From positions 92,456 through 154,918 of the forward strand of contig CADBKM010000001.1 of the NCBI GenBank assembly GCA_902795265.1: a DNA stretch of 62,463 bases, read 5' to 3'. Positions 47,768 to 60,656 of this stretch are shown in pieces. This DNA comes from an uncultured Eubacteriales bacterium (GTDB lineage: Bacteria > Bacillota > Clostridia > Peptostreptococcales > Anaerovoracaceae). The notes beneath the pieces are model-generated. The model ran no database searches. It had not been told where the DNA came from and saw only the letters and a program-made list of their open reading frames with translations. Within the stretch, counting starts at the first letter, position 1, and each line of letters starts with the position of its first letter. The position numbers and the translations under genes were made by a program.

Positions 47768-50168
47768 AATACTCACACTCCTCGAATTCAATAAAATACT
47801 TGATCTCCTGCGCGATCAGGCAGGCTCCGAACTGACTAAAGAAAGAATAGATCAGCTTGAACCTATGACCAATATGCGCATGGCGGCAGATGCACTAACG
47901 GAAACTACTGAGGCGGTTTCCGTTATTCTGTATAAGGGAAGCATTCCTGTCGGAGAGATCGGAGATATAAGCAGCATAGTCGCAATGGCCAGAAGGGGCA
48001 GATGCCTCAGCATGAGAGAGCTTCTACAGGTCAGGGCGAGCATAGCTGCATCGCGCAACGTAAAGAACTTCCTTAAAGAAGACATGCCTGATGGGCTTAA
48101 AGTCATACCCGAGATAGCAGGTCTGCTTGACCCGGTAGTAAAGCTGGAGCGCGATATTTATGATGCGATCATCAGCGAAGATGAGATGTCAGATAACGCT
48201 TCATCAGAGCTTAAGTCGATCAGGCGCGAAATGCGCAATAAAAACGATCTTATAAAGTCGCGTCTTCAGAAGATGGTAAGCTCATCGAGCGCAAAGTCGC
48301 ATCTTCAGGATGCGATAGTTACGATGAGAAACGGCAGGTATGTAATTCCTGTAAAGAGGGAATACATAAGTCTCTTCCCGGGCATGGTACACGACCAGTC
48401 ATCGACAGGCGCAACGCTTTTCGTTGAACCGCAGTCGGTCGTGAATCTCAATAATGAACTGAGACAGCTCGAAATGGATGAGCAGGCCGAGATCACCAGA
48501 ATACTCGAGCTCTTCAGCAGCAGAGTGGGCGAACACCATCAGAGCCTGCTTAACGACCAGAGACTGATGCTCGAACTTGATTTTATCAATGCAAAGGGAA
48601 AGCTTTCGGTCATGATGGACGGCGCAGCGCCGCATCTCAACGACGAGAACATAATCGACATCAGAACCGGAAGGCACCCGCTTATACCGGCTGATAAGGT
48701 CGTTCCTACAAATATCGAACTCGGACGCGACTGGACAACTCTGCTTATAACAGGACCGAATACAGGCGGAAAGACTGTAACTCTCAAAACGATAGGTCTG
48801 CTGTGCCTGATGGCTCAGAGCGGTCTGCACGTGCCTGCCTATGAAGAGAGCAGCCTGCCTGTACTGAAGGAGATATTCGCGGATATCGGCGATGAGCAGA
48901 GCATAGAACAGAGCCTCAGTACTTTCTCATCGCATATGAAAAATATCATTGAGATATTCAGAAATGCCGGAGAAGGCTGCCTGGTGCTTCTCGATGAGCT
49001 CGGAGCAGGTACGGATCCGCTCGAGGGAGCGGCGCTGGGCATTGCGGAACTCGAAAGGCTCAAGGAAGCCGGCGCACTCGTTGCCGCAACGACACACTAC
49101 ACAGAGCTCAAGAAGTATGCGCTTTCGACCCCGGGAGTCGAAAATGCCTCGATGGAGTTCAACGTCGAGACTCTTTCACCGACTTATAAACTCAGAGTCG
49201 GACTGCCGGGAAAATCCAACGCGTTTGAGATTTCCGAAAAACTCGGCCTCGACAAATCCATAATCGACAGGGCTGCAGAGCTCATGGGAGAGGAGCAGCT
49301 CGAGTTCGAAGAAGCCGTGAGCAGGGTCGAGGCAGACCAGGCTGCGGCAGAGGAAAGGCTTGCGGAAGCCGGCCGTGAAAGGGAAGCTGCCCACGAGGCC
49401 ATGAGCGAGGCTGAAAAAGAACTTGCAAAGGCAAGGGCAGAAGCTGCAAAGATAGTCGAAGAGGCGCGCAAGCAGGCGGGGGTAATGCTCAGAGATGCCC
49501 AGGGCACTATCGATGAGATCACCACCGAGCTCAGAGATATACAGCGCAGAAAGAAAAACGCGGGCTTCAACGAAGGCCACATTGCCGGAGGAGCAGCTGC
49601 GGGCCGCAAAAAACTCAGGCAGGCAGAATCCGCGCTCAAACCGGCCGATGCTCCTAAAGTGGACACAATTCAGACAGGTAAGATGCCTGATCCTGAAGAT
49701 CTGAAAGTCGGAATGAGGGTCAAGTACACGAAGCTCGATCAGACCGGCGATGTAGAGAGCCTTCCTGATTCAAGAGGAAACTTCGGCATAAGGCTGGGAT
49801 CCATAAGAATGACTGTCAATGTCAAGGATGTCGTCATAGCGGAGTCCGAGCCACAGGGCAATAAGGAGAAAAACAGAGCGAAGTACGGCAGCATGTCATT
49901 CGGCAAGACCAAAACCGTAAGCACGGAGATCAACCTTATAGGCATGAATCTCGATGATGCGGTAGACCGTATGAACAAGTACATCGATGACGCTTTCCTG
50001 GCAGGCCTTAAGACGGTCAGCGTGATACACGGCAGAGGCTCCGGCATTCTACGCAAAGGCCTCAGAGCTGAGCTCAGACGCAACAAGCATGTCGAATCAT
50101 ATAAAGCAGCGCCTTATGACCAGGGCGGAGAGGGGTGTACCCAGGTAACTCTGGTCGACCGCAAATAG
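47757..50168 (+). CDS. mutS2: Endonuclease MutS2 / RqcU
   Basis: About 803 residues. MutS core and ATPase without the mismatch-recognition domain: Walker A GPNTGGKT at 333-340, FSSHMKNI, LLDELGAGTDPLEGAAL, then a long coiled linker (about 505-620), KOW-like segment and C-terminal Smr domain (INLIGMNLDDAVDRMNKYIDDAF, VIHGRGSGILRKGL). MutS2 suppresses recombination and, in Bacillus, rescues collided ribosomes. ATG 47757 is inside the zapA end; GTG 47751 is the alternative. Conserved zapA-mutS2 neighbourhood. Confidence 0.96.
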   Translation: MNSKILTLLEFNKILDLLRDQAGSELTKERIDQLEPMTNMRMAADALTETTEAVSVILYKGSIPVGEIGDISSIVAMARRGRCLSMRELLQVRASIAASRNVKNFLKEDMPDGLKVIPEIAGLLDPVVKLERDIYDAIISEDEMSDNASSELKSIRREMRNKNDLIKSRLQKMVSSSSAKSHLQDAIVTMRNGRYVIPVKREYISLFPGMVHDQSSTGATLFVEPQSVVNLNNELRQLEMDEQAEITRILELFSSRVGEHHQSLLNDQRLMLELDFINAKGKLSVMMDGAAPHLNDENIIDIRTGRHPLIPADKVVPTNIELGRDWTTLLITGPNTGGKTVTLKTIGLLCLMAQSGLHVPAYEESSLPVLKEIFADIGDEQSIEQSLSTFSSHMKNIIEIFRNAGEGCLVLLDELGAGTDPLEGAALGIAELERLKEAGALVAATTHYTELKKYALSTPGVENASMEFNVETLSPTYKLRVGLPGKSNAFEISEKLGLDKSIIDRAAELMGEEQLEFEEAVSRVEADQAAAEERLAEAGREREAAHEAMSEAEKELAKARAEAAKIVEEARKQAGVMLRDAQGTIDEITTELRDIQRRKKNAGFNEGHIAGGAAAGRKKLRQAESALKPADAPKVDTIQTGKMPDPEDLKVGMRVKYTKLDQTGDVESLPDSRGNFGIRLGSIRMTVNVKDVVIAESEPQGNKEKNRAKYGSMSFGKTKTVSTEINLIGMNLDDAVDRMNKYIDDAFLAGLKTVSVIHGRGSGILRKGLRAELRRNKHVESYKAAPYDQGGEGCTQVTLVDRK

Positions 50169-50194
50169 AATATAAAAAAGGGGAAACAGCAAAA

Positions 50195-50725
50195 ATGTAT
50201 ATAGTCAGCAGATGCCTTCTGGGCTTTGATTGTAAGTACAACGGGGGCAATAATAAAAATGATGATGTCATAGAGTTCTGCAAAACTCATGATTATGTTA
50301 CAATATGCCCGGAGACAGCCGCCGGGCTGGCCGTACCGCGCGAACCGGCAGAGATCGTGCCTGTAGACAATGAGTTTTTCAAGGTGCTCGACAAATCAGG
50401 AAACGATCTCACAAAGGCTTTTGATGAAGGCGCAGAGCTTTCACTCAATTCGGTCCTGGTCGAGCATGGTTCGAGAAAGCACGGAACATGCAAGATAGAA
50501 GGCGCGATACTCAAGGCCAACAGCCCTTCATGCGGAGCGGGAGCTGTTTATGACGGCTCATTCAGCGGAAAGCTGACAGGCGGCAACGGATTATTCACCG
50601 ACAAGCTGATCGATGCCTGCATTGAAGAAAGGGCAAACGAAGAGCTTGATGCGGAAAGCAGAGTGTTCGCGGATGATTTCATGATCTGCGACGAAAATCA
50701 TTTCATGAAAGTGTTTGGGAAATAA
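50195..50725 (+). CDS. DUF523 family protein
   Basis: 176 residues, cysteine-bearing family of unknown function. Typical start SRCLLGFDCKYNGGNNKNDDV, then CPETAAGLAVPREPAEI and SPSCGAGAVYDGSFSGKLTGGNGLFTDKLI. Conserved cysteines suggest metal or Fe-S binding. ATG 50195 follows AAAAGGGGAAAC; an upstream in-frame start at 50135 lies inside mutS2 and is rejected. Followed 1 base later by argS. Confidence 0.9.
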   Translation: MYIVSRCLLGFDCKYNGGNNKNDDVIEFCKTHDYVTICPETAAGLAVPREPAEIVPVDNEFFKVLDKSGNDLTKAFDEGAELSLNSVLVEHGSRKHGTCKIEGAILKANSPSCGAGAVYDGSFSGKLTGGNGLFTDKLIDACIEERANEELDAESRVFADDFMICDENHFMKVFGK

Positions 50726-50726
50726 G

Positions 50727-52454
50727 ATGGTAGATTTTAAAGAACTTATAGCAAATTCAATTTACAGTGAAGAACTCGGACTGAGCAGGGAAGAAATCAG
50801 AAACATGATCGAGATCCCGGCTGAAGAGAAGATGGGAGACTATGCGTTTCCTTGCTTCAGGCTTGCGAAGGCGCTCAGAAAGGCACCGCAGCTTATAGCA
50901 GCAGACATAGCTGAAAGAGTGAGCGGAGCTGAAGGCTTTGCCAAGGTCGAGAACGTCAATGCCTATGTCAACTTCTTCATCGACAGAGCATTCTTTGCCG
51001 GCGAGGTAGTCAGCGAGGTCAGCAGGCTCGGTTCGGACTTCGGCAGATCAAATGTAGGAGAAGGCCGCAAGGTCATAGTGGAGTACTCCTCGCCTAACAT
51101 TGCCAAGCCGTTCCATATCGGTCATATAAGGAGCACTGTAATAGGCAACGCGCTTTACAAGCTTTATGATGCGACAGGATTCGATGTCGTAAGGATCAAC
51201 CACCTCGGTGATTACGGTACACAGTTCGGCAAGATGATCGTTGCCTACCGCAAATGGGGAAGCGAAGAAGAGCTTGCCAAAGAGCCTATCAAAGCCCTTC
51301 TCAGTTACTATACTAAATTCCACGAGGAAGCAAAGGAGCATCCTGAACTTGAAGATGAAGCCAGGGAAACCTTTGTAAAGCTCGAAGCAGGCGAAGCTGC
51401 AGAGCTTGAACTCTGGAAAAAGTTCAGAGAGCTGAGCCTTGAGGAATTCAACAGGGTCTATGACATGCTCGGCATTACATTCGATTCATATGCCGGCGAG
51501 AGTTTCTATTCCGACAAGATGCCTAGGTTCATCAAAGAGCTCAAGGAAAAGGGCCTTCTGGTCGAATCACAGGGCGCTCAGATCGTAGATCTCGAGCCTT
51601 ACGGACTCGGTGCGGCCATGATCACAAAGTCAGACGGATCAAGCCTTTACGTTACCAGAGACATAGCAGCTGCCGTATACCGCAAGGAGCATTATGACTT
51701 CTACAAGTGCATCTACGTAGTGGCATCGCAGCAGAATCTGCACTTCAAGCAGTGGAAAAAGGTCCTTGAACTCATGGGATATGAGTGGGAGAAGGACTGC
51801 ATCCACGTACCGTTCGGACTTGTCAGTCTCTCTGACGGAGACGATATCAAGATGATGTCGACACGTGAGGGCAGAGTAGTATTCCTCGAAGATGTACTCA
51901 ATACTGCAGTCGCAAAGACAGCTGAGATAATGCGCGAAAAGGATGCTCAGGGAATAGATATCGATGAGGTATCGAAGGAAGTCGGCATCGGAGCCGTTAT
52001 TTTCCAGGAGCTCTCAAACAATAAGATCAAAGACTACGTATTCTCGTGGGACAAAGTCCTTAACTTCGATGGCGAGACAGGGCCATACGTACAGTACACG
52101 CATGCAAGAGCTTCAAGCGTTCTGAGAAAAGCAGCAGCTGCCGGAGCAGATATCGATAAGCTCGACAGCTTCGATCCTGAATACCTCAGAAGCGACAGCG
52201 CGTATACTCTTGCCAAGCTCATCTACAGAGTCCCTGAGGTGGTGCTGGAGGCTGCAGAAAAGTATGAGCCGTCCATCGTTACACGCCATCTGGTAGATAT
52301 CGCACAGTCGTTTAATAAGTTCTATCACGACGAGCACATTCTGGTAGAAGACGAGGCTGAAAGAACCTCGAAGCTTGCTCTCGTGAAGGCGTCAAAGACA
52401 GTAATTGCAAATTGTCTGGGATTACTGGGCATTGCAGCACCTGAAAGGATGTAA
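50727..52454 (+). CDS. argS: Arginyl-tRNA synthetase
   Basis: 575 residues, class I synthetase charging tRNA-Arg. N-terminal Add-1 domain (about 1-90), HIGH motif in SPNIAKPFHIGHIRST, and the KMS-type loop DDIKMMSTREG. The anticodon-binding DALR domain at the end includes GPYVQYTHARASSVLRKA and ALVKASKTVIANCLGLLGI...PERM. Ribosome site TTGGGAAA overlaps the DUF523 stop. Complete and ordinary. Confidence 0.97.
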   Translation: MVDFKELIANSIYSEELGLSREEIRNMIEIPAEEKMGDYAFPCFRLAKALRKAPQLIAADIAERVSGAEGFAKVENVNAYVNFFIDRAFFAGEVVSEVSRLGSDFGRSNVGEGRKVIVEYSSPNIAKPFHIGHIRSTVIGNALYKLYDATGFDVVRINHLGDYGTQFGKMIVAYRKWGSEEELAKEPIKALLSYYTKFHEEAKEHPELEDEARETFVKLEAGEAAELELWKKFRELSLEEFNRVYDMLGITFDSYAGESFYSDKMPRFIKELKEKGLLVESQGAQIVDLEPYGLGAAMITKSDGSSLYVTRDIAAAVYRKEHYDFYKCIYVVASQQNLHFKQWKKVLELMGYEWEKDCIHVPFGLVSLSDGDDIKMMSTREGRVVFLEDVLNTAVAKTAEIMREKDAQGIDIDEVSKEVGIGAVIFQELSNNKIKDYVFSWDKVLNFDGETGPYVQYTHARASSVLRKAAAAGADIDKLDSFDPEYLRSDSAYTLAKLIYRVPEVVLEAAEKYEPSIVTRHLVDIAQSFNKFYHDEHILVEDEAERTSKLALVKASKTVIANCLGLLGIAAPERM

Positions 52455-52460
52455 TTTACC

Positions 52461-53981
52461 ATGAAGCTGTTATTGACAACTATTGAGTCGGAATGCAAAC
52501 GCACCGACCTTGCTCTCAAGTCACTCTACAGCATCACGACTGACTCGCCTATAGATGTACATCTGAAGACTTTCGGCCGAAACGAGCTGTATAATGACAT
52601 CTTTGAGAACATAGCAACCGGTCAGTATAACATCGTATACTTCCATGCGAACCGTTTTAACATCAGACAGCTGACACGCGTAGCTGATATGGTGAAGAAG
52701 GCGATCCCGAGTATCGCCATACTGTTCGGCGGAATGGAGGTATCCTTTGAAACGCGTGCCTTCATGAAGAAGAACGATTCGGTCGACTATGTCATCAGGG
52801 GCGAGGGCGAGACCGTGCTGTTCAACTTCCTGAAGTCGCTGCTCGACTATGAATTCGATTTTGAGAACATAGCCGGACTTGCGTACAGGGAAGGTGACCA
52901 GGTAGTTGTCAATCCATACGATGCACCTGTAGAGATGGAATCTCTTCCGTTCCCGTATGAACGCTTTGAAGTGGGCAAAGGGACCGTATATTACGAGTCT
53001 ATCAGAGGCACATCAGACAGGGCGGCATTCTCACAGTTCCTTCCTAATGCAAGGGTAAGGACGCTGAGTCTCGGAAGGGTATGCACCGAGCTAAGGTACT
53101 TCCTTGCCAACGAAGTCGAGCGCGTCGTATTCCTCGACAAATGGTTCAACTTCAACAGCGAGAGAGCATACAGGATATTCGAATACATCATAAACAATGA
53201 TAACGGAGTTACATCTTTCGAGTTCAATATCAACGGCGACGAACTCGATGAAGAGACGATCAGACTTCTTTCCGAAGCGAGAGAAGGACAGATCATATTC
53301 AACATGGATATCGCCAGCACCAATGCAGAAGTGCTTGCTGCGTGCGGAAGGGGCGAGAACATATATAAGCTCATGTACAATACTACAAAACTGCTTCACA
53401 GCGGAAATGTGCGTACGGAGATCCATGTAAAAGCCGGACTTCCTCTTGAGACTGAAGCCATGTTTGCCCGCTCGTTCAACAAGGCATACGGCATGGCGGA
53501 GGGCATGCCAGTGCATATCGACAGCATGTATGTAAGCAAGGGCACAGCCCTGAGGGCTGAGGCTCAGGTATACGGCTATGTATATGCCGAAGATGCTCCT
53601 TATGAGGTGATAGCTACCGGTCATATGACGGCTGAGGAGCTGCTCAGAATAAGGGCAATCGCCCGCACTGTAGAAAGCTATATCGGTGACGGCGGTTTCA
53701 GGAAGTCGATACCGAGAGTGCTGAATGATACCGGCATCAAGCCGTACGATCTGTTCAGCAGGCTTTCCTCATACATCATAAAGAATGACCTTGGAAGCAA
53801 GACCCGCAAAAAAGAGCATCTGGCACGCATACTGTATGCGTATACAGCCGGTCTTTATGACGATCTTGCTGATCCGGTCAAGCACGATATACTGAAGGAT
53901 GTCATCTATGCCGATCTTGAAACTCAGATCAGCGAAGAGGCAATGAGAAAATTCGATAAAAAAGGCTGGGAAACAGATTGA
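52461..53981 (+). CDS. B12-binding/radical SAM (DUF4080-type) homologue lacking the cluster cysteines
   Basis: 506 residues. The N-terminal part (about 1-130) matches the cobalamin-binding-type Rossmann domain (YNIVYFHANRFNIRQL...SIAILFGGMEVSFETRAFMKKN...DYVIRGEGE). The middle aligns with radical SAM barrels of the DUF4080 group: YYESIRG, LSLGRVCTELRYFLANEVERVVFLDKWFNFNSERAYRIFEYI. The CxxxCxxC that should follow the RG is replaced: Thr184, Ala188, Ser191. All three 4Fe-4S ligands are gone while the rest is well kept, so this looks like a selected pseudoenzyme, not a decayed gene. The C-terminal helical domain is complete. Overlaps a TPR gene by 4 bases (TTGA). Confidence 0.82.
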   Translation: MKLLLTTIESECKRTDLALKSLYSITTDSPIDVHLKTFGRNELYNDIFENIATGQYNIVYFHANRFNIRQLTRVADMVKKAIPSIAILFGGMEVSFETRAFMKKNDSVDYVIRGEGETVLFNFLKSLLDYEFDFENIAGLAYREGDQVVVNPYDAPVEMESLPFPYERFEVGKGTVYYESIRGTSDRAAFSQFLPNARVRTLSLGRVCTELRYFLANEVERVVFLDKWFNFNSERAYRIFEYIINNDNGVTSFEFNINGDELDEETIRLLSEAREGQIIFNMDIASTNAEVLAACGRGENIYKLMYNTTKLLHSGNVRTEIHVKAGLPLETEAMFARSFNKAYGMAEGMPVHIDSMYVSKGTALRAEAQVYGYVYAEDAPYEVIATGHMTAEELLRIRAIARTVESYIGDGGFRKSIPRVLNDTGIKPYDLFSRLSSYIIKNDLGSKTRKKEHLARILYAYTAGLYDDLADPVKHDILKDVIYADLETQISEEAMRKFDKKGWETD

Positions 53982-55003
53982 GTGAAAGCAGACAAGAAGA
54001 CAGAATAAGCAAATACCTTTCTCCGCGGATTCAGAATATGATGTTCGCGGAGCTTTCACCTGATTATCTTTCACGGACAGGCGCACTTGAGATACTTGCG
54101 GGGATCCCGGTTCCTGTGGGGATAGAGGGCAGCGACGACAGAGGCCAGACTGATCTTAAGAACATTGTGTTCAACATGGCCAGAGTTATCGGAGGAGATC
54201 CGTACTTTGTATACGCTGAAAAGTATGTGGATTTCATAAAGCACGCGACAGGTGATAACGCCGCGCCGATGCTGGTATCCGAGGGTGCACGCTGCGCAGA
54301 TATGGGCGATTTCGAAGATGCCTGCATGCTTCTCAGAGGAGCGCTCAGGATAGAGCCTAAATCTAAAGAGGGCCTCTATCTGTACGCGAGGGTGTGCAAG
54401 GAGATCTACGAAGAAGAAGCCAAGGATGGCATTGGTGATGAAGAAAAGACCGGAATGTTCAAGGCGGAATCATCAGAGACCTTCGAGCTGCTCACGATGA
54501 TACACCCTGATTTTGCGATGGGTTATTACTTCCTGGGTTACGCATATCTCAATATGGGCCTCTATCTGAAAGCAAGGCTCACCTGGCAGGATTTCCTCAA
54601 ATACTCTGCCGGAAGCGAGATGGAGACCCACGAGATGGACGATCAGATGCTGGCATCGCTGAGAGAGGAAATATCCGAAAGAGTAGAAGAACTTGAGGAG
54701 CCTGTGAAAATCGAGCTCGGCTGCAATAAGATAATGGGCGGAGATTTCGTCGGAGGCAGGGATATACTTGCGGGGTTCAAAGAGGGCAGGTATTCACAGT
54801 GGTGGCCGCTCTGGTACTATCTGGGAATCGCTGAATCATCTCTCGCGAATGCCGAAGAGGCAATAGCAGACTTCAAAAAAGTGCTGCAACTGTCTCCGAG
54901 CAACACGGACGCCATGGACGAGCTGGTACACCTTTACGAAGCTATCGGCGATACGGTAAATGCTGAAAAATACAGGAAGAAGATAGCTATAATAAACGGA
55001 TAA
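53978..55003 (+). CDS. Tetratricopeptide-repeat protein coupled to the radical SAM-like gene
   Basis: 341 residues, soluble. TPR-like helical pairs at about 95-125 (EGARCADMGDFEDACMLLRGALRIEPKS), 160-200 (FAMGYYFLGYAYLNMGLYLKARLTWQDFL) and 270-330 (WPLWYYLGIAESSLANAEEAIADFKKVLQLSPSNTDAMDELV). TTG start lies in the upstream stop codon, so translation is coupled and a complex with the radical-SAM-like protein is likely. No enzymatic motif. Last gene before a terminator. Confidence 0.82.
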   Translation: MSESRQEDRISKYLSPRIQNMMFAELSPDYLSRTGALEILAGIPVPVGIEGSDDRGQTDLKNIVFNMARVIGGDPYFVYAEKYVDFIKHATGDNAAPMLVSEGARCADMGDFEDACMLLRGALRIEPKSKEGLYLYARVCKEIYEEEAKDGIGDEEKTGMFKAESSETFELLTMIHPDFAMGYYFLGYAYLNMGLYLKARLTWQDFLKYSAGSEMETHEMDDQMLASLREEISERVEELEEPVKIELGCNKIMGGDFVGGRDILAGFKEGRYSQWWPLWYYLGIAESSLANAEEAIADFKKVLQLSPSNTDAMDELVHLYEAIGDTVNAEKYRKKIAIING

Positions 55004-55200: not shown

Positions 55201-56451
55201 ATGGCTGGTTTTTGGATGGGATTAGTCGGCCGTGAGTCGCTGATCGCAGCTGATGACATGTGGGGACTTCTCGTAGTCATGACGATGGGCGTTTTCTTCT
55301 CCATCTGGCTCGAGCAGAAGTACGCCTGGGCTTCCAAGGTATCCGGTGCTATTATCGCGCTGATCATAGCTATGGTACTTGCTAACCTCGGAGTTATCCC
55401 TACTTCTTGTGTACTTTATGATGACATCGTATGGGGAGTTATCGTTCCGCTTGGTATCCCTATGCTGCTTCTCCAGTGTGACCTGAAGAAGATCTGGGCT
55501 GAGACGGGACGAATGCTGGTCATATTCCTGATCGGTGCTCTCGGAACAGTTATCGGTGCATATCTCGCGTACTTCCTGCTCAAGGGACCTTACGGCAATG
55601 CTCAGGATCTCGCAAGAGTAGCTTCGATGATGACAGGTTCGTACATCGGCGGAGGCGTAAACTTTGCCGCTATGGCATCGCAGTACGCTGCAGGTGAGGA
55701 CGTAACAGCAGCTGCTACAGTAGCGGATAACCTGCTGATGGCTATCTACTTCTTCGTTCTTATCTTCTTCGCAGGAAACAGCTGGTTCCGCAAGAACTTC
55801 AAGCACCCTCTGATCGACGAAGTCGAGTCGGGCGCTGTAGATCTCGAAGAGGCAAAGACACTTGCTGCTCAGTTCTGGAGCCGCAAGGACATCTCGCTCA
55901 AGGATATCGCCATCAATATCGGATACGCTGCCACAGTAGTATGGGTATCACAGCTCATCGCAGGTATCTTCGGCGGATTCGAGCCGAACGGCGTATTCAT
56001 GAACTTCGTGGTAAGATTCCTCGGATCACAGTACGTATGGATCACTACCATCTCCGTACTCGTTGCCACATTCATGACAAAGACGGTAAAGGAAATGCAC
56101 GGATCACAGGAGATCGGTACATACTGCATCTACCTGTTCCTCTTCGTAATCGGTGTTCCTGCAAACATCTACACCGTTGTTACAAAGAGCCCGCTCTTCC
56201 TTGTACTCACAGCTATCATGGTATTCGTAAACATGATTTTCTGCTTCGGAGCTGCAAAGATCTTCAAGTTCAACCTTGAGGACGCGATAATCGCTTCGAA
56301 CGCCAACATCGGCGGACCTACGACTGCTGCCGGCATGGCCATTTCACAGGGCTGGGTCGACCTGGTAGGACCTGCGATGCTCATCGGTACATTCGGTTAT
56401 GTTATCGGAAACTATCTCGGAACAGTCGTAGCCGTAACACTCGGCTTATAA
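55201..56451 (+). CDS. DUF819 family membrane protein
   Basis: 416 residues, about 11-12 spans, family of uncharacterised permeases (YjcL-like). Symmetric halves with GSYIGGGVNFAAMASQYA and SNANIGGPTTAAGMAISQGW, which resemble the substrate regions of sodium-coupled transporters. Very strong ribosome site TAAGGAGG. It precedes two dipeptidase genes but is separated from them by a terminator, so uptake or export of an amino acid or dipeptide is only a guess. Confidence 0.88.
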   Translation: MAGFWMGLVGRESLIAADDMWGLLVVMTMGVFFSIWLEQKYAWASKVSGAIIALIIAMVLANLGVIPTSCVLYDDIVWGVIVPLGIPMLLLQCDLKKIWAETGRMLVIFLIGALGTVIGAYLAYFLLKGPYGNAQDLARVASMMTGSYIGGGVNFAAMASQYAAGEDVTAAATVADNLLMAIYFFVLIFFAGNSWFRKNFKHPLIDEVESGAVDLEEAKTLAAQFWSRKDISLKDIAINIGYAATVVWVSQLIAGIFGGFEPNGVFMNFVVRFLGSQYVWITTISVLVATFMTKTVKEMHGSQEIGTYCIYLFLFVIGVPANIYTVVTKSPLFLVLTAIMVFVNMIFCFGAAKIFKFNLEDAIIASNANIGGPTTAAGMAISQGWVDLVGPAMLIGTFGYVIGNYLGTVVAVTLGL

Positions 56452-56463
56452 ACGATTCGTTTG

Positions 56464-56500
56464 TCAGGCGCTCAGTTTTTTGGGCGCCTGATTATTTTTT
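56464..56500 (+). terminator. Terminator after the DUF819 gene
   Basis: TCAGGCGCTC / GGGCGCCTGA stem, then TTATTTTTT. The M19 gene starts only 16 bases later, so some read-through or a promoter within the DUF819 gene must serve it. Confidence 0.85.
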
Positions 56501-56515
56501 CAGGAGGCTATATCA

Positions 56516-57499
56516 ATGAAAGTTTTTGATGCTCACAGTGACATCTGGACGGATGTCACGATCAAGCGTATGAAAGGCGAGACAAACGTATTTCATAATC
56601 ATCACTTTGAAAGACTGCAGAAGGGCGGAGTCGAAGGAACGATCCTCGTTCTCTGGGTAGATCCGCCTCATACAAGAGACTACGAAAAGAGAACAAAAGA
56701 GATCTTCAGTTGCGTATCTGATGAGATAGCAGAGGCGAAGGACTTCAGGATCGTCAGGACATATGACGAGATGATGAAGGCCCGCGAAGATGGAGTTTTT
56801 TACATAATGATCGGTGTTGAGGGAATGGCATATGCTTCTTACGACCCGACATTCAAAAAGTTTGACGAGTACTACGACTTCGGAGCAAGACATGGAATGC
56901 TCACCTGGAATGAAGAGAACGGATTCGGTCACAGCGCCGCATCCGGAAGCACCGAGGGCCTGAGCGAACTCGGAAAGCAGGCTGTCCGCAGAATGATCGA
57001 CAAGAGGATGATCGTAGATACATCCCACCTCAATGAAGCGGGATTCTGGGACATCGCCAGGATCATGGACGGACGTCCGTTCATCGCGTCGCACTCCGAC
57101 TGCAAGAAGTTCAGCTCCCACCCGCGCAACCTTACGGACGATCAGCTCAGAGCCATCCGCGACGCGAACGGCTGCGTAGGACTCAACGCATGGAATGAGT
57201 TCCTCGACAACGACCCTGCAAAGGGCGACATAAACAGACTGGCAGACCACTGCGAGCACATGATCGATGTGATGGGCATCGACCACGTAGGCTGCGGATT
57301 CGACTTCTGCGGATTCCTTGGCGATCCTAACGACCCTGAGGTATACTCGGGTATGGATGCTGTCACCGCGGGCCTTGAGGACGCGAGCAAGATCCCGGGA
57401 CTCTTCGAGATCCTCAAAAACAGGGGAATGAGAGAGGACGAGATGCAGAAGATCGCTTACGGCAACTTCCACCGGATCGTAAAAGAAGTAGTAGGCTAA
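56516..57499 (+). CDS. Membrane dipeptidase family (M19) peptidase
   Basis: 327 residues, zinc dipeptidase of the renal dipeptidase fold. Ligand positions match: His7 and Asp9 (DAHSD), Glu102 (GVEGM), His171 (DTSHLNEAGFWD) and His193 (ASHSD). The family hydrolyses dipeptides, including those with a C-terminal D-residue. No signal peptide, so cytoplasmic. Ribosome site CAGGAGG. Followed 18 bases later by a VanX-like dipeptidase. Confidence 0.93.
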   Translation: MKVFDAHSDIWTDVTIKRMKGETNVFHNHHFERLQKGGVEGTILVLWVDPPHTRDYEKRTKEIFSCVSDEIAEAKDFRIVRTYDEMMKAREDGVFYIMIGVEGMAYASYDPTFKKFDEYYDFGARHGMLTWNEENGFGHSAASGSTEGLSELGKQAVRRMIDKRMIVDTSHLNEAGFWDIARIMDGRPFIASHSDCKKFSSHPRNLTDDQLRAIRDANGCVGLNAWNEFLDNDPAKGDINRLADHCEHMIDVMGIDHVGCGFDFCGFLGDPNDPEVYSGMDAVTAGLEDASKIPGLFEILKNRGMREDEMQKIAYGNFHRIVKEVVG

Positions 57500-57517
57500 T
57501 AAGCCGGGAGGATCATC

Positions 57518-58372
57518 ATGGTCGATTATAAAAAGCCGATCCCTAAGATCGAGTTTCTGTCAAACAAACTGCCTGTCGCAGAGCCGTCGGATGAACCGAT
57601 GGTGCTCATGAACGACAGGTTCATCTGCCACTCGTGGTACTATGACTGGCCTGAGACCAATGGCACGCCGCTGCCGGGTTCGAGCCCTAACATCCTGGTC
57701 CGCAAGACCGTCTTTGAGATGCTCGAGAAGGCCGAGGCGCTGCTGCCTGAGGGCTATAAGTTCTTCATCTTTGACGCGTACAGGCCTATCCCTGTGCAGC
57801 AGTCGCTGTGGGACTACTACAGGGCCAAGAAGGTAGAGGAGATGCCTGGCGCAACAGACGAAGAGATCGACTATCAGACACTGTTCTGCGTATCCTTCCC
57901 TTCATATAACATTCTGCTTCCTTCGCTTCACAATACAGGCGGAGCTGTAGACCTCACAATAGTCGGTCCGGACGGCAACAGGCTCGATATGGGCAGCAAA
58001 TTCGATGAATTCGGTGACCGTGCATGGACTACATACTATGAAGACGGAGAAAAGGGAGAGGGTGTCAACGATGTCGCCAGAGACAACCGCCGCATGCTCT
58101 ACAACGTAATGATCGAAGCGGGCTTTACAAACTTCCCTGCAGAGTGGTGGCACTTCGATTACGGCGACGAGAAGTGGGGCCTGTTCACTGACAACGCCCC
58201 TATATACGGCGGAGTGCTCGATGCGGAAGTAAAGGATACGGTCCCGTACAATAACATGGAGCTTGTCAGAAAGTCCAACGCAAAACAGCTGGAGGCTGTA
58301 AAACAGATCAAAGCGCTGCGTGCAGGCTGCAAGGCTCTTGACGAAGAAATCGCTTCGGTTATGAGAGGTTAA
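57518..58372 (+). CDS. D-alanyl-D-alanine dipeptidase (VanX/DdpX-like, M15D)
   Basis: 284 residues. Zinc ligands and catalytic residues map onto VanX with the same spacings: His138 and Asp145 (LHNTGGAVDLT), Glu209 and His212 (EWWHFDYGD), and Arg89 (DAYRP). The family cleaves D-Ala-D-Ala. No vanH/vanA/vanB or vanRS genes lie nearby, so peptidoglycan recycling or D-peptide nutrition is more likely than glycopeptide resistance. It lacks a signal peptide. Ribosome site CGGGAGG. Paired with the M19 dipeptidase. Confidence 0.9.
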   Translation: MVDYKKPIPKIEFLSNKLPVAEPSDEPMVLMNDRFICHSWYYDWPETNGTPLPGSSPNILVRKTVFEMLEKAEALLPEGYKFFIFDAYRPIPVQQSLWDYYRAKKVEEMPGATDEEIDYQTLFCVSFPSYNILLPSLHNTGGAVDLTIVGPDGNRLDMGSKFDEFGDRAWTTYYEDGEKGEGVNDVARDNRRMLYNVMIEAGFTNFPAEWWHFDYGDEKWGLFTDNAPIYGGVLDAEVKDTVPYNNMELVRKSNAKQLEAVKQIKALRAGCKALDEEIASVMRG

Positions 58373-59474: not shown

Positions 59475-60656
59475 TTATGCGCTTAACGCTTTGATTGCTT
59501 CTATTTTTTCTGCGGCCGGTACATTGATGTAATACTTTGCTGTTACAGATATATCGCTGTGACCCATGAGGGATGAGAGTGTCTGAAGTGCAACTCCCTT
59601 GGAGGCAAGTTTTGTACCAAATGTATGCCGATACGCGTGGAACCCATACTGACTTACTTTGGCATCCTCATGGATACGATCCAGAGTGTGCCTGAGTGAG
59701 TGTTTATCATACAGTTTACCTGAATCTGTAGTGAACAGAAGATCTGTATCATATTTATTCTTTTTCATATCTTCTTTCTGCCACTCCCTGTGCTCAGCAA
59801 GCCTGGAATATGTCTCTTCTGTTATTGGAATTGATCTTACGCTGTTCTCTGTCTTTGTATCATCGATAACGAGCTCATGGCCGACAGTCTTACCATCCTC
59901 GAAAATAGGTCTTTCTACTACTTGTTTATTGATCGTGATTTTGTCTGGTTGTATATCATCATATGTAAGAGCCAGCAGTTCACTAATTCTTGCTCCGGTG
60001 TTTATCGCAAGTGTGATTAGAAATCTCAATCTGCAGACCCTTCGGTTTTCATAGTAGGGGAGATCTTTTATAGCTATATATTTCTTGATAGCTTCTATCT
60101 CTTCGTCATTGAACACTATGATCTCGCCAGGAGCATTCTTCTTTTTAGGCTTTGGTACTACCAGGCTCTTGGTAATGTCCTTACAAATATCTTCCTGCTC
60201 CATGAGCTTAAAGAACAGTCTCATGAGCTTATGGCAGTTCTTAACTCCGGAAGGGGCACAGGTCATGTCGTTATACGCAGCCTGCAATCCACGGTAATCA
60301 ACATCTGTGATGAGTTTTTTTGTAATATCCATTGGAGCCAGGTTATTGTTATACGCATCTATATAACGCTGCTTGGTACTTTCCTTAAAATTAGGATCAG
60401 GAAGGAATGTGTTACAGATAAAATCATCTGCCAGTTCGCCAAAGAACATTTCGCGAGCATTGATACCGTGATTAGCGTTAAACTTATCACGCTTTGCATA
60501 ACATTCCTTTAAAGTCTTCCCATAGAACTTTTTGTAAACCTTGCGGTTGCCATTTTTGTCGAGGTAGGGCCTTACTTTGACATTGATAACAATATACGGC
60601 TGACCATTGATGGTTTGTTTTTTTCGTTTAGTTTTCTTTTCCTTTGATTCTCCCAT
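59475..60656 (-). CDS. int: Tyrosine recombinase integrase (ICE/prophage type)
   Basis: 393 residues. N-terminal arm-binding region (about 1-65, basic), core-binding SAM-like domain (about 70-165), catalytic domain with Arg223 (NTGARISELLAL), Lys268 (DTKTENSVRSIPI), His340 and Arg343 (HAYRHTFGT), His366 (LMGHSDIS) and Tyr375/376 (AKYYI). All catalytic residues are present. It directs site-specific integration, here probably at the tRNA-fMet 3' end, which lies about 220 bases from the gene's stop. It starts 2 bases after the XRE gene stop with no obvious own promoter, so it is co-transcribed with the repressor. Lower GC than the flanking core genes. Confidence 0.93.
   Translation of the reverse strand: MGESKEKKTKRKKQTINGQPYIVINVKVRPYLDKNGNRKVYKKFYGKTLKECYAKRDKFNANHGINAREMFFGELADDFICNTFLPDPNFKESTKQRYIDAYNNNLAPMDITKKLITDVDYRGLQAAYNDMTCAPSGVKNCHKLMRLFFKLMEQEDICKDITKSLVVPKPKKKNAPGEIIVFNDEEIEAIKKYIAIKDLPYYENRRVCRLRFLITLAINTGARISELLALTYDDIQPDKITINKQVVERPIFEDGKTVGHELVIDDTKTENSVRSIPITEETYSRLAEHREWQKEDMKKNKYDTDLLFTTDSGKLYDKHSLRHTLDRIHEDAKVSQYGFHAYRHTFGTKLASKGVALQTLSSLMGHSDISVTAKYYINVPAAEKIEAIKALSA

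Follow-up and report, generated by a model that had tools for sequence, protein, structure and literature searches.

Pseudoenzymes, that is, proteins whose catalytic residues have been lost and which are yet kept by selection, are well known in other superfamilies. For the DUF4080 radical SAM proteins considered here, the nearest solved structures by sequence are those of TokK and CysS, two class 1 cobalamin-dependent radical SAM methylases; a profile of canonical DUF4080 proteins matches CysS with an E value of 2.1e-37 and TokK with 2.7e-36, and a profile of the clade described below matches TokK with 2e-18 and CysS with 5.9e-16. Passages of two reports place Trp76 of TokK and Trp75 of CysS under the cobalt (PMC13331322, PMC12846815), and Trp215 of TokK, at the position two after the last cysteine, bridges SAM and cobalamin according to the relevant section of a third (PMC9692996). 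The open-access literature, to which the search was confined, yielded no paper naming DUF4080, none describing a pseudoenzyme among radical SAM proteins, and nothing pairing Mogibacterium with radical SAM; the terms radical SAM and pseudoenzyme both occur in passages of one article, unrelated to each other (PMC10754289).

The window, by which we mean the whole stretch of 62,463 nucleotides that was analysed, comes from an uncultured Eubacteriales bacterium and carries a 506-aa open reading frame directly after argS, as an earlier sequence-only reading of this DNA had noted (Table 1). The same reading had attributed to the protein the domains of the DUF4080 group, and these are present: the models PF13311 (62.2 bits), PF02310 (37.8 bits), and PF04055 (29.5 bits) all reach their Pfam cut-offs. 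The PF04055 match (E 9.7e-7) lies exactly at its cut-off and covers the profile only from position 25 on, past the cluster loop, and no NCBIfam model reached its cut-off against the window protein. The three Pfam models, along with a locus that has argS upstream and a TPR gene downstream, establish descent from the DUF4080/B12-binding radical SAM family. Elsewhere in the window, a 2-thiouracil desulfurase-domain (PF04463) protein at 50135-50725 overlaps argS and is frequent in the mutS2-argS run of relatives; a DUF819 membrane protein, an M19 dipeptidase, and an M15 D-Ala-D-Ala dipeptidase-type protein follow one another at 55201-58372, the DUF819 and M19 dipeptidase genes lying 3' of the TPR gene again in some congeners only. 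A phage-integrase-family recombinase (PF00589) on the minus strand at 59475-60656 hints at a mobile element close to the end of the window.

Table 1. Features of the DUF4080 locus in the window
Feature	Coordinates	Strand	Basis
argS, conserved upstream neighbour of the DUF4080 gene	50715..52454	+	
DUF4080-family radical SAM pseudoenzyme, 506 aa + stop	52461..53981	+	Pfam matches, residue readout, fixed-position counts
B12-binding-like domain, residues 15-120	52503..52820	+	PF02310 E 1.9e-9; fold matched, cofactor positions altered
Phe66, where TokK (Trp76) and CysS (Trp75) have their Trp below cobalt	52656..52658	+	Alignment
Ex-cluster loop, residues 184-191, Thr184/Ala188/Ser191 replacing three Cys	53010..53033	+	
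Radical SAM barrel remnant, residues 199-336	53055..53468	+	PF04055 29.5 bits, at cut-off
Strand, residues 281-288: EIG(V/I)QSTN in canonical relatives, NxDxASTN in clade	53301..53324	+	
DUF4080 C-terminal domain, residues 371-488	53571..53924	+	PF13311 E 9.3e-17
TPR-repeat protein, 341 aa, TTG start	53978..55003	+	Conserved neighbour

The CX3CX2C motif of functional radical SAM enzymes is absent from the window protein, and residue readout confirmed the replacement by Thr184-Ala188-Ser191 that had been read from the sequence. The loss is shared by a whole clade of gut bacteria. A comparison set of 43 distinct genus-level sequences (the window among them; six, drawn from the second search described below, assigned by similarity, and one, L035, a 407-aa fragment) and eight sister-genus sequences was assembled, and CxxxCxxC is missing from all 51 members of this set, which represents the Mogibacterium/Candidatus Crickella clade, with 0/43 and 0/8 sequences, respectively, containing it at any point along their length; orthologues lacking the cluster cysteines, which the sequence-only reading proposed to look for, were found, and loss of the complete motif is the rule here. 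By comparison, the motif is found in 47/47 canonical sequences of the same family (a set that excludes loci L109, L115, L116, and L119) and in 22/22 of other families. Counted by locus, 50 of the 51 same-family loci outside the clade have it, the sole exception being L116, as do all 22 loci in other families of the same order. A second search for relatives, covering contigs of 84,980 species, returned 50 clade loci, all without CxxxCxxC, and a 51st locus from a Bacilli MAG (L182) that has it; the named relatives were Mogibacterium sp. and Candidatus Crickella MAGs, along with M. kristiansenii, Mobilibacterium timonense, Baileyella intestinalis, M. pumilum, M. timidum, and Alterileibacterium massiliense. 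NCBI taxonomy places Mogibacterium in the Anaerovoracaceae, Peptostreptococcales.

Within the clade, none of the three cysteines is left in 39 of the 43 genus rows and one is left in the other 4, and several sister genera retain one or two, the eight sister-genus rows reading CCS, CGS, NCS, DCA, VCS, VCS, NCR, and ACS. A cluster held by three replacement cysteines was considered and rejected: C208 (47/51) is the only clade cysteine conserved in at least 90% of sequences (C12 is found in 28/51 and C63 in 19/51), and one such column is too few. The alternative cluster-binding cysteines that the sequence-only reading had named as evidence against itself are therefore unlikely. The gene is present in single copy, with exactly one match in 33 of the 35 congeners searched and none in two whose assemblies are 74% and 59% complete; the window's own genome likewise has one match, and no canonical DUF4080 paralogue, of the kind the sequence-only reading suggested seeking, was found in this assembly, which is 86% complete.

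The changes extend well beyond the cluster loop. Fixed positions were defined as those conserved in at least 95% of the 47 same-family canonical rows and at least 80% of the 22 other-family rows, giving 79 positions, of which the window protein retains 40 and has altered 39. Genus rows retain 36-46 (mean 42.0) and sister-genus rows 40-47 (mean 42.8), M. kristiansenii combining 47 with a CxxxCxxS motif; canonical rows retain 72-79 in the same family and 60-79 in others, values that are partly built in because the positions were selected on these sets. Two canonical fragments that took no part in the selection retain 71 and 72. The earlier claim that everything except the cluster had been kept is contradicted by these counts. 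In the B12-like domain of the window protein, N9, H14, E37, T39, I40, S62, Y64, W66, and P92 are altered, and in the barrel S193, Q221, K223, T228, H254, E256, E281, G283, Q285, H320, D322, Q352, G354, and K357, so that E281, G283, Q285, H254, E256, H320, D322, and K357, the barrel residues by which a functional radical SAM protein was to be recognized, have all changed.

Several of these positions bear on the cofactors. Position 66, the counterpart of TokK Trp76 and CysS Trp75 in the alignment, is Trp in 69/69 canonical rows versus 0/51 clade rows, the window protein having Phe66. Position 193, two after the last cysteine of the motif, is Ser in all 69 canonical rows and in none of the 51 clade rows. 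The canonical strand EIG(V/I)QSTN, which we take to be the ribose motif and which aligns with LSMQST of TokK, has become NxDxASTN in the clade. With these fixed positions lost, including the Trp under cobalt, retained binding of SAM or cobalamin by the window protein is unlikely. The motifs GGxEVS, DxxxxGEGE, YYExxRG, DxxFN, NDNG, and GLPxE have been retained, and may mix fold residues with possible pocket residues; since E179, R182, D226, F229, N230, and the barrel GLPxE are all still in place, a ligand pocket could survive.

The protein has nonetheless been kept by selection, which together with its lost catalytic residues makes it a pseudoenzyme. Pairwise comparison of 13 congeners (78 pairs) gave dN/dS values with a median of 0.053 and a maximum of 0.083, indicating purifying selection; the corresponding values for the neighbours are 0.033 (TPR gene) and 0.022 (argS). 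Synonymous sites approach saturation (median dS 1.84), but dN/dS is 0.050 in a less diverged pair with a dS of 0.54. In an argS tree, 22 clade rows form one group at an SH-aLRT of 100, nested among canonical lineages; in a tree of the radical SAM protein built without its nearly fixed columns, 25 clade rows group together, again at 100.

The clade locus also differs from its canonical counterparts in gene content. At canonical same-family loci, argS and the DUF4080 gene are separated by a further gene, called gene X in what follows, whose 290-aa radical SAM product matches PF04055 with an E value of 3.6e-20 and reaches no NCBIfam cut-off. The gene X protein, described at locus L079 and encoded likewise at most canonical same-family loci, begins MRYxGxIYRPPSEAxSL. 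Gene X is found at 46/47 canonical same-family loci, the 47th genome having it elsewhere, and at none of the 103 clade locus records, a count that includes duplicates. Searching 23 clade genomes in full gave nothing better than a match of 169 bits at 36% identity, compared with more than 300 bits for a true gene X; that match represents a type of paralogue which genomes with gene X can carry as an additional copy. These distributions are suggestive of a link between gene X and canonical DUF4080 inside the family. Of the 20 listed genomes of the family in which DUF4080 has no match, 18 keep gene X too, and as a strict partner of the canonical protein it was rejected: no match to gene X exceeds 250 bits in 6 of the 19 canonical-DUF4080 genomes from other families, and L116 has lost its motif despite gene X.

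Two further loci stand apart from this pattern. L116 (G312 C1:126431-127873) encodes a DUF4080 protein without the cluster motif that keeps 44/79 fixed positions, with gene X still upstream. It groups with the canonical proteins of the genus to which it belongs, and placement with the clade is rejected (AU p 0.00015); its motif loss is independent of that of the clade. L116 was found in one genome only, so decay is possible there. L109 (G164 C18:2423-3853) keeps CxxxCxxC and 45/79 fixed positions, and gene X is missing. A position as sister of the clade is compatible with the data (AU p 0.43), making L109 a possible intermediate; if it is indeed the sister, decay of the pocket would have come before loss of the cysteines.

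The sequence-only reading had seen in the coupled TPR gene a pointer to a new complex. The coupling itself is real, the TTG start of the TPR gene overlapping the TGA stop of the pseudoenzyme in a TTGA at 53978-53981, and a search for the pair, also suggested at that stage, found the TPR gene adjacent in 103/103 clade locus records (duplicate genomes included). It equally adjoins the canonical DUF4080 gene at 47/47 same-family loci and, among genomes of the family in which DUF4080 has no match, is present in all 20 that were listed (from a group with 34 more such genomes), where argS lies upstream of it in 20/20 and gene X in between in 15/20. The TPR gene is therefore a constant part of the locus and an ancestral neighbour, its position being no evidence for a complex new to the pseudoenzyme, and its candidacy as a special partner of the latter was rejected. 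Covariation is no more specific: the correlation of radical SAM and TPR protein distances given argS is 0.54, and the control, radical SAM with mutS2 given argS, is 0.58; given both argS and mutS2, the first correlation falls to 0.37, with no control left. For TPR columns selected as fixed on one half of the canonical sequences, retention is 0.946 in the held-out half, 0.931 in the clade, and 0.904 in DUF4080-less genomes, a small difference that is compatible with a kept interface and no proof of one.

We favour, at a probability of roughly 0.6, the reading that the window protein is an old, cofactor-free radical SAM pseudoenzyme with a binding role. Given the loss of the cluster residues and apparently of those for its other cofactors, under strong selection, its job is probably non-enzymatic. 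It would bind no cluster, SAM, or cobalamin, and would work by binding as a scaffold or adaptor, likeliest with the TPR protein or with the target of the ancestral enzyme. The ancestor would have been a DUF4080 radical SAM protein of the cobalamin-dependent type in an argS - gene X - DUF4080 - TPR run; by the time the Mogibacterium/Crickella clade arose, gene X would have gone and the residues lining cobalamin, SAM, and the cluster would have been altered, the three cysteines then eroding singly while the fold, single copy, locus, and strong purifying selection persisted. The new non-redox role proposed in the sequence-only reading fares accordingly in part: a conserved pseudoenzyme free of decay stands (51/51, dN/dS 0.053), binding of cobalamin or SAM is disfavoured by the 40/79 positions kept, and a binding partner appears the likeliest of the three options it gave (cobalamin, SAM, or a partner).

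Other explanations of the altered residues fit less well. That the gene is decaying, strain-specific, or an assembly artefact, which the sequence-only reading had itself raised against its claim, is barely credible and was rejected for the clade, where nothing speaks for it (the separate L116, in one genome, could be decay): the frames are intact in the congeners read, dN/dS is about 0.05, the gene is conserved genus-wide, and many independent assemblies carry it. It is also improbable, if somewhat less so, that cobalamin or SAM is still bound, or a cluster held through other ligands, in the service of an altered chemistry. The B12-binding and radical SAM models do still match, M. kristiansenii keeps CxxxCxxS and 47/79 positions, and in mutants, according to passages of PMC9692996, TokK tolerates substitution of W76; against this, the Trp under cobalt is lost and position 193 altered in 51/51 clade sequences, E281, G283, and Q285 are gone, and a single cysteine is conserved. 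The wider cobalamin economy weighs on the same side. A scan of 36 genomes, which measured PF02310 domains only, found that in 7 of 15 clade genomes nothing apart from the DUF4080 protein passes the Pfam cut-off for a B12-binding domain, and thus that the protein is kept where little else suggests cobalamin use; other PF02310 proteins occur in 13/13 canonical and 6/6 DUF4080-less genomes, and G164, the genome of L109, has no PF02310 match at all over the cut-off.

A more serious competitor, though still an unlikely one, is that a small-molecule ligand, be it a metabolite or the substrate of the ancestral enzyme, still binds in the cofactor-free barrel, making the protein a sensor or carrier. 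Polar barrel residues are nearly fixed in the clade (E179, R182, D226, N230, D247, N248, R274, R297, and E330), and others have become newly fixed there (D283 in 47/51, H62 in 47/51, Y306 in 51/51, and C208 in 47/51). Many of the retained residues may be structural, however, and the canonical enzyme, whose domain family was named by no paper in the open-access literature searched, has no known ligand. Returning to the protein-binding pseudoenzyme, a broader version of that reading can be put forward tentatively, at somewhat less than even odds: a clade-wide, stepwise conversion into a cofactor-free structural or binding protein working with the ancestral TPR protein, which, with the second, independent loss in L116, would point to a conversion-prone family whose non-catalytic function can outlast its chemistry. 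The clade supplies one- and two-cysteine intermediates, and alongside them stand canonical proteins closely related to it and genomes in which the TPR gene persists without DUF4080. Comparison among these makes approachable the question of what radical SAM proteins do besides chemistry, and with it the function of canonical DUF4080 proteins.

Among known systems, TokK and CysS differ from the clade, which has lost the cluster motif, the Trp under cobalt, and the strand that aligns with LSMQST of TokK. Dph2 of the eukaryotic Dph1-Dph2 pair, as described in passages of PMC8153317, is likewise a non-catalytic partner in chemistry of the radical SAM type (non-canonical). Unlike the window protein, which has no cluster motif, Dph2 retains a [4Fe-4S] cluster that helps to reduce Dph1, and it is a paralogue beside its catalytic partner, whereas no catalytic DUF4080 paralogue was found for the window protein (PMC8153317 for Dph2). 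The canonical DUF4080 proteins of the same order (PF13311) are separated from the window protein by their CxxxCxxC, as against T/A/S, and by the number of fixed positions kept, 72-79 out of 79 in the same family and 60-79 in other families, as against 40. They share with it the domain order, the locus with argS upstream and the TPR gene downstream, and approximately 30-39% identity, and in the same-family members the length of the C-terminal part equals that of the window protein.
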